Positions 14,884-43,249 of a DNA stretch of 64,000 nt are shown in pieces; positions within the stretch are counted from its first letter, which is position 1; every line of letters starts with the position of its first letter. This DNA comes from Bacteroidales bacterium. GTDB taxonomy: Bacteria > Bacteroidota > Bacteroidia > Bacteroidales > UBA12077. Below the pieces are notes generated by a model, which was not told where the DNA came from, searched no databases, and saw only the letters and a list, made by a program, of their open reading frames with translations. Both the position numbers and the translations under genes were made by a program. The stretch covers positions 496,001-560,000 of the forward strand of contig JAEINU010000003.1 in NCBI GenBank assembly GCA_016342685.1. The letters run 5' to 3'.

Positions 14884-14964
14884 TGTCATTCCCAACTTGA
14901 TTGGGAATCTCTCAGGTGCGGGAATTAAAAAATGATAGATTCCGGTTCTTCGCCCGGAATGACA
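14884..14964. repeat. Palindromic intergenic element, copy 1 (81 bp)
   Basis: The ends form a 12-bp perfect inverted repeat (14881-14892 with 14956-14967). Inside are two smaller hairpins: TCCCAA-N5-TTGGGA near 14890-14906 and TCCGG..CCGGA near 14941-14957. Two further copies are at 29825-29906 and 42273-42354; all begin TGTCAT and end ATGACA and share an AACTTGATTGG-type segment. There is no coding capacity. Confidence 0.75.
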
Positions 14965-14974
14965 TTTAAGGGTT

Positions 14975-14999
14975 TGTCATCTTGAGCTTGTCGAAAGAT
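14975..14999. repeat. Dispersed GAGCTTGTCGAA repeat
   Basis: The sequence TGTCATCTTGAGCTTGTCGAAAGAT is a small hairpin (ATCTT/AAGAT arms around GAGCTTGTCGA). Relatives are at 29726-29750 and 53729-53755, and a partial one is inside the hairpin at 10022. Confidence 0.65.
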
Positions 15000-15028
15000 A
15001 GACATGTTCAACTAATAAATAATAATCT

Positions 15029-29725: not shown

Positions 29726-29750
29726 TGTCATCCTGAGTTTATCGAAGGAT
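29726..29750. repeat. Dispersed GAG(C/T)TT(G/A)TCGAA repeat
   Basis: TGTCATCCTGAGTTTATCGAAGGAT forms a small hairpin with ATCCT/AGGAT arms. It is the same family as at 14975 and 53729. Confidence 0.6.
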
Positions 29751-29824: not shown

Positions 29825-29906
29825 TGTCATCTTCAACTTGATTGGAGATCTTATAGTAAATTCTACATTTTACTAAAATGAGATTCTCTTTTTCAAGGGA
29901 ATGACA
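29825..29906. repeat. Palindromic intergenic element, copy 2 (82 bp)
   Basis: It starts TGTCATC(T)TCAACTTGATTGG and ends TCAAGGGAATGACA. It is the reverse complement of the element at 42273-42354 over both ends, and also matches 14884-14964. The middle differs between copies. The 68-codon reading frame crossing it is spurious. Confidence 0.72.
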
Positions 29907-41245: not shown

Positions 41246-42208
41246 ACATAAAAATATTTACATTTATTATAAGTCTACTCTTAATAGCAAATACTGGGCT
41301 CAAAGCCCGGAAAAAATGTCGTATCAGGCAGTAATACGCGACAATACCAATCAATTAGTTACGAATCAGGAAGTGGGAATGCAAATTAGTATTTTACAAG
41401 CTTCAGCTGATGGTTAGGCAGTTTATGTTGAAAGTCAAACGTCAACAACTAATGCCAATGGATTGGTAAGTATAGAAATTGGGATAGGTACAACAGTGAT
41501 AATTTTTCTTCAATAGACTGGGCACAGGGTCCGTATTTTATTAAAACTGAAACCGATCCGGAAAGAGGTTTCAATTATAGTATAACAGGAGTAAGCCAAT
41601 TGTTAAGTGTGCCCTACGCAATGCATGCTAAAACAGCTGAAAATATAAGTGGCGAAATCAACGAAACCGATCCTGTTTTTACTGCTTGGGATAAAAGTAC
41701 AGGAATCAGCATTATCGAAAGTCAGATTAGTGATTTGCAGAATTATTTAACTGTCGAAGTAGATGGATCAATTACCAACGAATTACAATTTCTAAGTCTT
41801 TCGAATGATACATTGTATTTATCAAATGGCGGTTTTGTTAAAATACCTTCCGGTGAACGACAAATGTTAAGTTTATCAAACGACACAATATATTTAACGA
41901 ATGGAGGATTTGTAAAATTTCCTGCTTCTTTTACAGGAGCAAATTTATTGGTGAATTATACAAAAACAGATAATGTGTGTGTGTACAGCGAAAATGGAAG
42001 TATCAATGTTACGGTTAGTGGTGGTACACCTCCATACACTTATAGGTGGGGTAATTTTTCTTTTAGCTGGAAAAATAGTAGTGGAACAGAAATTTCTACC
42101 GAAGAAGATTTATCAGGTGTTGGAGTAGGAAACTATACACTCGAAATAAGCGACCTTAATAATTGTATCTATGAGATACATTATTTTGAAATTAACATGA
42201 GTCATTAA
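41246..42208 (+). pseudogene. Broken paralogue of the FISUMP-type repeat protein, SprB-like C-terminus
   Basis: From 41251 the DNA matches the start of the gene at 39085 closely. The start codon region is damaged. A deletion in the signal peptide (GCAAATGCTTGGGC became GCAAATACTGGGC) shifts the frame. A TAG interrupts the ADG..AVYVES segment near 41416, and a further indel lies near 41500. From 41600 the frame is open for 202 codons: LLSVPYAMHAKTAENISGEINETDP, one repeat with ESQISDLQNYL, two SLSND repeats, and a SprB-like repeat (VTVSGGTPPYTYRW, LSGVGVGNYTLEISDLNNC). The C-terminal half differs from the intact gene. It is a pseudogene overall; the 3' part has an ATG-less internal start and is unlikely to be secreted. 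Confidence 0.82.
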
Positions 42209-42251
42209 CTAAATAAAAATATAATAATTCTAGCGATCTAATGTTAAGGGG

Positions 42252-42374
42252 CTGTCCAAAAAGTAAATGAACTGTCATTCCCTTGAAAAAGGGAATCGCC
42301 TAAATGGCTGCTTAACAACTAATAATGAGATCTCCAATCAAGTTGAGGATGACAATAATTGACTTTTTGGACAG
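42252..42374. repeat. MITE-like element with CTGTCCAAAAAGT terminal inverted repeats
   Basis: The arms CTGTCCAAAAAGT and ACTTTTTGGACAG are perfect inverted repeats, extended by imperfect flanks (GGGG and AGTC). The sequence GGGCTGTCCAAAAAG resembles ends of several bacterial insertion sequences. No transposase is present. A T run follows at 42379-42384, so it could also end the upstream pseudogene's transcript. Confidence 0.5.
42273..42354. repeat. Palindromic intergenic element, copy 3 (82 bp)
   Basis: It starts TGTCATTCCCTTGAAAAAGGG and ends CAATCAAGTTGAGGATGACA. It is inverted relative to the copy at 29825-29906 and nested in the larger inverted repeat 42252-42374. Confidence 0.72.
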
Positions 42375-42532
42375 AGTCTTTTTTATAAACTATTAAACAT
42401 AGTTTACTAATTCAAAAGGTTTAATAATTTGATATGACTATAAGGTGGATGAAACGAAATATAAGAAGAGAAGCAAATTAATTAGGAAGACAAAAAGAAG
42501 TAATAGCTGCTGTTTCAAGTTATAACAATTTG

Positions 42533-43249
42533 TTAAGCAATCGTTAATCTTTTTATTACTTCATCTTTATAACTTCTACTAATTGGAATTTCATTTTCAC
42601 CAATCTCAATATATTCGTTGGTAAATGAATCAATCTTATCTATTGAAACTATAAAAGAACGATGTACTCTAATGAAATCTTTTTGCGGAAGTTTAGCTTC
42701 AATATTTGTAATTGTTTCTCGAGTGATAATTGTGTTATCGACTAAATGAATTTTTATATAATCGCTTAAGCTTTCGATATATTTTATTTCGTAAAAATTA
42801 ATTTTAATCATCTTTCGATCAGCGCGCACAAAAATATAATCGCTTTGATCATTACTAATTACATGTGCAGATTCTTTTATTTCTTGATGGTTTTCATTTC
42901 TATATTTATAAATTGCCTGAAGCAATCGATCAAAGGAAATTGGTTTTAAAAGATAATCAACAGCTTGTAAATCGAATCCATCAACGGCATATTCTCGGTA
43001 AGCGGTAGTGAAAATTATTTTTAAGTCTTTATTTATTGATTTGGCAAAAGACAAACCCGATATTTCGGGCATATTAATATCTAGGAAAATTAAATCTATT
43101 TCATGTGTGCTAATTGCATTAAATGCTTCTACTGCCGATTTGCAACTACAAACTATTTCTATTGCATCAATTTTGGAAAGGTGACTTTCAAGAATTTCTC
43201 TTGCAACAGGTTCATCATCAACAATAATACATTGAATTGCATTAGCCAT
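42533..43249 (-). CDS. LytTR-family response regulator
   Basis: The receiver domain occupies about residues 6-125, with the acidic pair DD at 11-12, phospho-acceptor D57 (LIFLDINMPEISG) and K107-like LKPISF. A LytTR DNA-binding domain follows (about 140-238: DYIFVRADRKMIKINFYEIKYIESLSDYIKIHL, RVHRSFIVSIDKID). The 238-residue protein would be activated by the histidine kinase encoded upstream, whose stop overlaps its start by 8 bp. LytTR regulators often control envelope or transport genes; the permease and serine hydrolase genes at 45-48.5 kb are candidates by proximity only. Confidence 0.92.
   Translation of the reverse strand: MANAIQCIIVDDEPVAREILESHLSKIDAIEIVCSCKSAVEAFNAISTHEIDLIFLDINMPEISGLSFAKSINKDLKIIFTTAYREYAVDGFDLQAVDYLLKPISFDRLLQAIYKYRNENHQEIKESAHVISNDQSDYIFVRADRKMIKINFYEIKYIESLSDYIKIHLVDNTIITRETITNIEAKLPQKDFIRVHRSFIVSIDKIDSFTNEYIEIGENEIPISRSYKDEVIKRLTIA

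Follow-up and report, generated by a model that had tools for sequence, protein, structure and literature searches.

Background

The closest described relatives of the repeats considered here are the REPs of the CGTC superfamily which, according to the sections of PMC3733652 devoted to them, carry an unpaired CGTC or TGTC tag at one end, a stem of 8-9 bp starting with AT, a loop of 4-5 bases and a short unpaired tail, which is CCA in most members. The same sections describe these REPs as predominantly HH dimers, with heterodimers in CGTC-2, that are not associated with transposase genes, the mover being left open; section 7 adds that in H. neapolitanus and A. variabilis REP dimers occur within palindromes (Di Nocera et al. 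2013, PMC3733652).

The window analyzed here, that is, the whole stretch of 64,000 nucleotides (C38:496001-560000), comes from a source genome of 4,771,206 bases in 54 contigs and holds three copies of a palindromic repeat whose 82-bp unit, as judged from sequence, consists of two CGTC-superfamily REPs in feet-out order. The likeness to the published elements extends to the TGTC tag, the 8-bp stems starting with AT, the CTTGA and GAAA loops, the inverted units with a variable spacer, the location downstream of genes and the host, Bacteroidetes being among those listed in the part of PMC3733652 concerned. The differences are that the tail after the stem begins with CT in 38 of the 43 source-genome copies and with CCA in none, and that many copies are enclosed by IS1182-type inverted arms, which the sections of PMC3733652 on these repeats do not describe. 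The 43 copies are the core-like ones (<=3 mismatches) in the fetched source-genome loci and so represent a local rather than a genome-wide count. Thus, the repeat is of a known kind, whereas its packaging in a shell of the IS1182 type was not seen in the literature searched; a literature search with the shell and REP motif strings returned, as judged by title, no work on bacterial repeats. We assume that HH stands for feet-out and take the present pair to be a dimer of a CGTC-2-like and a CGTC-1-like unit.

Two other systems invite comparison. Like IS1182 MITEs, the shelled copies have inverted arms that resemble IS ends, are often ~130 bp long, contain no gene and occur in several copies and in many genomes; unlike such MITEs, they have a REP pair for an interior, not an internally deleted IS, and no target duplication stood out. 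The REPIN/RAYT systems (GTAG REPs) likewise have hairpins in pairs and a conserved tetranucleotide at the foot; the repeats differ from them in the TGTC tag and in that the Y1 genes belong to another palindrome.

Three copies in the window

The features of the three copies are as follows.

14884-14964, + strand: copy 1, feet-out REP pair without a shell, 7 bp past the stop of a gene that we call NuoG-like
14884-14909, + strand: CTTGA-loop hairpin of copy 1 (C38:510884-510909), TGTCAT-hairpin pattern
14938-14964, - strand: partner hairpin of copy 1 (TGTCATTCCGGGCGAAGAACCGGAATC; C38:510938-510964), TGTCAT-hairpin pattern
29825-29906, + strand: copy 2, feet-out REP pair without a shell, flanked by convergent T9SS plug protein and S9 peptidase genes
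29825-29850, + strand: CTTGA-loop hairpin of copy 2, TGTCAT-hairpin pattern
29882-29906, - strand: GAAA-loop hairpin of copy 2, TGTCAT-hairpin pattern
42248-42378, - strand: copy 3 entire, 131-bp shelled MITE-like element with the REP pair inside
42248-42265, + strand: shell arm of copy 3, GGGGCTGTCCAAAAAGTA (C38:538248-538265), arm pattern
42361-42378, - strand: shell arm of copy 3, GACTCTGTCCAAAAAGTC (C38:538361-538378), arm pattern
42273-42297, + strand: GAAA-loop hairpin of copy 3, TGTCAT-hairpin pattern
42329-42354, - strand: CTTGA-loop hairpin of copy 3, TGTCAT-hairpin pattern

The original prediction placed the copies at 14884-14964 (81 bp), 29825-29906 (82 bp) and, inverted, at 42273-42354 (82 bp), and these coordinates are correct. 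The TGTCAT...ATGACA ends and the AACTTGATTGG segment that it ascribed to the family are found in all three copies, and the two hairpins with a variable middle correspond to the standard copy, in which two hairpins with their feet outward surround a variable spacer. Only the extent of copy 3 has to be revised: its ends hold, and beyond them lie additional inverted arms that bring the element to 42248-42378. The proposed placement at the 3' ends of genes is true of 3 out of 3 copies by inspection of their neighbors. The gene before copy 1 encodes molybdopterin-oxidoreductase and Nqo3-type domains, hence our choice of name for it; the convergent genes around copy 2 encode a T9SS plug domain and an S9 peptidase, and copy 3 is flanked by an ORF with a SprB repeat and by a convergent LytTR regulator gene. 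The predicted RNA folds of the three copies are more stable than those of shuffled sequences (z from -4.0 to -5.5), and no Rfam family reaches the gathering threshold within the window. Single TGTCATCCTGAGCTTGTCGAAGGA-type units, which represent another subfamily with a short stem and a long loop, adjoin copies 1 and 2 (14975-15005 and 29726-29750).

Anatomy and abundance of the REP pair

The repeat family is real and abundant, and the original observation belongs to a larger picture. The core TGTCATYNNNAACTTGATTGGNNATC, when up to 2 mismatches are allowed, has 39 matches in the 4.77-Mb source genome, compared to 0 for the reversed pattern, so that the alternative under which only three copies would exist fails; the broad TGTCAT-hairpin pattern has 99 matches, compared to 10 in the control. 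One side of the pair reads TGTC-ATCCCCAA-CTTGA-TTGGGGAT-C and the other, inverted side TGTC-ATTCCCTT-GAAA-AAGGGAAT-C, with stems of 8 bp, loops of 5 and 4 bases, respectively, and the TGTC tags outside; most source-genome copies pair the two loop types in this feet-out fashion.

Among 45 chosen distinct CTTGA units from the source and related genomes, tag and loop are nearly invariant, with TGTC in 44 and TATC in the remaining one, a count to be read with the fact that the patterns used to find units demand TGTC with few mismatches. The stems of these units are paired in 95.8% of cells, compared to 81.3% after shuffling and at most 57.5 in slid versions, and 71 cells show changes on both sides, compared to 23.2 in shuffled sets (sd 6.7; 0 of 500 shuffles as high). 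Weaker measures of covariation give 5 versus 4.6 pairs changed on both sides and 15 versus 12.5 further pair types. The covariation of the stems is, accordingly, good but biased, because the search patterns themselves favored partly complementary stems.

Several local elaborations of this architecture were observed. In the right hairpin of L012, L039 and other loci, a mini-hairpin of ~24 bases sits in the loop (e.g. ACTCGCTTCGCTCATGAGAGAAGT), and in L003 and L038 an insert related to this mini-hairpin adjoins the foot, a palindrome nested in a palindrome. TGTC hairpins with several types of stem are densely clustered on both sides of an apparent polysaccharide locus (L071 and L073; G000:C4:108000-127999 and 148000-160000). 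Between clustered units, no transposase gene was recognized by eye on ORF starts in seven source-genome stretches.

The shell around the pair

In many copies the pair is enclosed by inverted arms, GGGGCTGTCCAAAAAGTC...GACTTTTTGGACAGCCCC, often with an A before and a T after. The arm pattern has 37 matches, compared to 1 in the control. Both arms are present in 16 of the 43 copies, one arm in 6 and none in 21, when 699 random flanks are used to set the 99% level; an alternative count that allows up to 6 mismatches gives 15, 5 and 23, respectively. In the window, copy 3 is shelled and copies 1 and 2 are shell-free.

The spacers of the shelled copies are related to one another (mean identity 0.594 versus 0.515 after shuffling, n=21), whereas those of the shell-free copies are not (0.503 versus 0.497, n=16); the comparison uses 37 of the 43 rows, the six in which the right end was not found being excluded. 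The shelled copies share their spacers and often their total length, and therefore appear to have been multiplied as a whole. Shells with other interiors also occur, for example with GAGCTTGTCGA pairs, in the source genome and in the genus; in two genomes of the genus, G012 and G008, the arm matches number 56 and 35, yet there is no CTTGA unit.

One arm of the shell is often a hairpin of its own followed by a T run (L067, L053, L060, L204, L206), as if a terminator were carried along; this hairpin is GGGGCT/AGCCCC in the source genome and GAGGCT/AGCCTC in others. In Bacillus renqingensis (L269, L281, L309), the arms span 116-117 bp, the interior repeats part of the arm, and the interiors look terminator-like and have no REP pair.

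Sites in relatives and gene context

For site 1, the interval from the NuoG-like gene to a terminator, 12 stretches were read; six are readable, and the other six are rearranged or devoid of the downstream flank. Where the source genome has its feet-out pair, other units arranged feet-in are present in G010, G018 and G004 and a single unit in G016, and G008 and G012 are empty; thus, the units in 4 of the 6 readable relatives are of the same superfamily and are built differently. At site 2 (17 stretches, 13 with both flanks), a CTTGA unit, in this case shelled, is present in G013 only, other palindromes occupy the site in G007 and G017, and in G011, G012, G003 and G006 there is just a short terminator. 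At site 3, a shell lies within ~400 bp in none of the 10 genomes that have the right-hand neighbor, a weak test given that the left side is not syntenic. Because presence and absence differ at sites 1 and 2, the units are, to judge from these comparisons, changing insertions at gene 3' ends. The comparison of empty sites proposed in the original prediction thus bore out the existence of empty or differently occupied sites and fell short of exact boundaries, the relatives, mostly 70-85% identical in DNA, being too distant; no base-exact empty site was found among them.

The preference for gene ends is not confined to the window. For 42 copies with both neighbors, the context is convergent in 23 cases, co-directional in 19 and divergent in 0, compared to 11, 49 and 14 among 74 background gaps from the window and seven other stretches, some of these picked as repeat-rich (Fisher p 1e-5 and 0.002). 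With one copy per locus the respective counts are 21, 14 and 0 (p 3e-6 and 0.004). Separate terminators adjoin some copies, for instance at sites 1 and 2 of the window, and a terminator scan of 42100-42550, around copy 3, found none.

Distribution across genomes

CTTGA units were found in 15 of the 59 genomes searched, 13 of these 15 belonging to the source's own genus, for which 20 genomes were available. With the pattern used, the number of units per genome ranges from 0 to 26, and the dominant stems differ between genomes. Arm matches are present in 19 of the 20 genus genomes, and copy 3 aligns over at least 118 bp in at least seven other genomes of the genus (G002, G004, G007, G011, G013, G017, G018). 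Phages and plasmids searched as carriers of copy 3 gave no match, and neither did viral contigs searched with the shell pattern.

A scan of GTDB for exact 14-base arms spanning 111-141 bp, in which 84,980 species were represented by one genome each, yielded 60 stretches in 38 genomes (counted by accession prefix), at least three of which (L268, L270, L297) belong to the same genus as the source. The hosts named in the records comprise Bacteroidota groups, Balneolaceae, Ignavibacteria, KSB1, Desantisbacteria, Planctomycetota, Armatimonadetes, Spirochaetes, Caldithrix and Bacillus; lone odd phyla in this list may be misbinned because many of the scanned genomes are metagenome bins. A CGTC-type hairpin lies inside 18 of the 57 distinct GTDB shells, seven of which hold two, and inside 15 of the 32 distinct genus shells, eight of which hold two, compared to 0.02-0.03 each for shuffled interiors. 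Such hairpins fall in only 2 of the 22 interior clusters of the GTDB shells and 1 of the 7 of the genus, the largest ones among them, and in Balneolaceae and Desantisbacteria, CGTC pairs with CTTGA loops were recognized by eye.

Candidate movers

So which enzyme could have mobilized these elements? The original prediction named a TnpA(REP) Y1 protein, and there are indeed two Y1 genes in the source genome; the one protein of the two that was tested is of the REP-associated type (NF047646, over cut-off). Each gene, however, sits directly between GCGCAAGCG palindromes, and the TGTCAT units near both genes are of another subfamily (GAGCTTGTCGA). The source Y1 protein carries the NHVH and YIHNNP motifs, which are those of the Bacteroidetes Y1 subclass 2.6; the part of PMC6006769 on this subclass describes atypical flanking structures, and the GCGCAAGCG palindromes would fit. 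In the genus at large, there are 74 Y1 matches across 18 of the 20 genomes. Under the stricter definition, a CGTC-type hairpin occurs at 1 of the 30 Y1 loci inspected, ~670 bp off and with a different loop, and under the looser one there are weak hairpins at 4 of the 30. Nor are units and Y1 genes linked: G013 (12 units) and G004 (3 units) have CTTGA units and no Y1 match, whereas the reverse holds for G003, G012 and G014, which have Y1 genes but lack CTTGA units. The RAYT-cognate test found, at the loci inspected, no Y1 gene flanked by a matching REP, and the foot is TGTC, not GTAG or GTGG. With these gene flanks and this pattern of presence and absence, we have to reject a Y1 or RAYT protein as the mover. 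As an aside, the near-identical Y1 genes of L031 and L032 (G000:C9:197948-201190 and 245489-248731), 47 kb apart and each between GCGCAAGCG palindromes, adjoin a duplicated lipoprotein-like gene.

Another candidate is suggested by the arms, which resemble the ends of IS1182-family insertion sequences. The search employed the PF13751 (IS1182 domain) profile and the NCBIfam IS1182 cut-off of 270 bits. The source genome has no PF13751 match, so the mover would now be absent or too diverged, and five of the 20 genus genomes, the source not among them, do have matches. Three whole proteins of the genus exceed the NCBIfam cut-off (354, 345 and 380 bits), and a broken transposase in G008 gives two partial matches (190 and 87 bits). 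This G008 IS of 1872 bp has AGAGGCTGTCTAAAAAG at both ends, with 1 mismatch to the arm, and the IS1182 element of G015 starts with GGGGCTGTCGAAAAAGGC. Among ten IS1182 loci over cut-off in shell-bearing genomes, the 14-base arm is present on both sides within 300 bp in six at up to 4 mismatches, one of the six (L339) being the G008 element again, and in three at up to 3 mismatches; the controls gave 0 of 22 Y1 loci, 3 of 300 random places (0 at up to 3 mismatches) and none of the 10 loci when the arm was reversed. The other four loci, one of which is truncated at a contig end, lack arms on both sides. In a Balneolaceae genome, the IS1182 end (L340) and the shell end (L318) are identical over CCTTTTTGGACAGCCTCAT, the IS1182 match there being 171 bits, below the cut-off, in a match cut by the contig start. 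At the level of whole genomes, IS1182 matches are not significantly enriched, with 22 of the 38 shell-bearing genomes (9 over cut-off) compared to 6 of 14 named controls (1 over; p 0.37 and 0.25).

IS1182 elements tend to favor palindromic targets, and in two cases here a palindromic target was recognized by eye. The flanks of the GTDB shells are complementary at 3.56 of 10 positions, compared to 2.96 after shuffling, with 1 of 2000 shuffles as high; for the genus shells, the complementarity is not significant (0.129). Target-site duplications of lengths 2-6, 8 and 9 at offsets 0-3 were sought, and none was more than 3 above the shuffled mean.

Element lengths

The GTDB shells cluster near 116, 127 and 137 bp, or ~120, 131 and 141 bp with two outer bases per side. 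Within the searched range of 111-141 bp, to which the phase results apply, a 10.5-bp phase was detected both when every interior cluster contributes a single length (n=21, R=0.586, a value reached by 0.001 of random sets) and when every genome does (n=37, R=0.633, reached by 0 of 2000 random sets). When only distinct lengths are counted (n=19), the phase is weaker, with a value of 0.022, and that for the best period is 0.11; the eight genus lengths outside the 127 class do not support the phase (0.61). A follow-up over 395 genomes yielded four elements, three of them new, of ~150, 153 and 158 bp by the same measure, where the predicted peaks are 148 and 158.5. Shared ancestry of differently filled shells could, as an alternative to phasing, give the same length modes.

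Discussion

The original prediction left the choice between a REP/BIME and a MITE pattern, and it is partly borne out. The REP/BIME class is supported because there is a hairpin pair with conserved feet, in many copies and with patchy presence in the genus. The MITE half holds in form for the shelled copies, and the proposed mover is not supported. In 16 of the 43 source copies (22 with at least one arm), copy 3 included, the pair would be the interior of a MITE, typically ~131 bp long, with IS1182-type arms. On balance, therefore, we are inclined to regard the shelled form as an IS1182-type MITE that encloses REP pairs. Under this hypothesis, a transposase of the IS1182 family, present in the cell today or at some earlier time, would cut at the arms and move the shelled pair in trans; copies would persist at the 3' ends of genes, where an insertion is nearly harmless, and in transcripts would fold into stable hairpins. 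Against this reading count the negative PF13751 search in the source genome, the 21 of 43 copies devoid of arms, the IS1182 loci that lack arms on both sides, the shells with other interiors, the negative search for target-site duplications and the non-significant difference in IS1182 presence between shell-bearing and control genomes. The shell-free pairs, copies 1 and 2 among them, may have lost their shell or may owe their spread to another mover.

The alternative that deserves most attention is that what moves is the pair itself, bounded by TGTCAT and ATGACA, through an as yet unknown enzyme that is specific to CGTC repeats and prefers palindromic DNA, the shell being no more than a favored target palindrome. 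The existence of shell-free pairs with unrelated spacers, the arrays of units, the different dominant stems in different genomes and the precedent of H. neapolitanus and A. variabilis, at least as section 7 of PMC3733652 presents it, all speak for such an enzyme, and we consider it possible, if doubtful, given that shelled copies share spacers and often total length, that the pair is off-centre in several Balneolaceae shells and that inspection by eye of the ORFs between units in seven source-genome stretches revealed no transposase. One could also imagine that the element is immobile now and functions in RNA at the 3' end, as a terminator or mRNA stabilizer kept by selection and multiplied by recombination. 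Such a role would suit the 3'-end location, the conserved stems, the stable folds of the three window copies and the terminator-like hairpin with a T run held by some arms (GGGGCT...AGCCCC or GAGGCT...AGCCTC); it is difficult to reconcile with the scattered occurrence across the genus and among orthologous sites, with the negative terminator scan around copy 3 and with the separate terminators that already adjoin some copies, and we find it improbable. The Y1 enzyme originally proposed retains very little credibility: two Y1 genes, the one tested being REP-associated in type, and the nearby GAGCTTGTCGA units are all that can be adduced for it, against flanking palindromes of another kind, a single CGTC-type hairpin at the inspected loci and the lack of linkage across the genus.

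Returning to the shelled MITE, a broader and decidedly tentative version of the hypothesis, one that we would not yet bet on, is that the movers so far missing for a substantial share of CGTC pairs, across several phyla, are IS1182-family transposases. A MITE of ~120, 131 or 141 bp would insert into 3'-end palindromes, its length being kept near whole helical turns as both ends are gripped on one face of the DNA. In any case, CGTC pairs inside IS1182-like shells give a concrete, testable candidate for the mover and, if this proposal is true, it would explain why two unrelated-looking layers of repeats co-occur at the ends of genes in several bacterial groups, most of whose members are uncultured.
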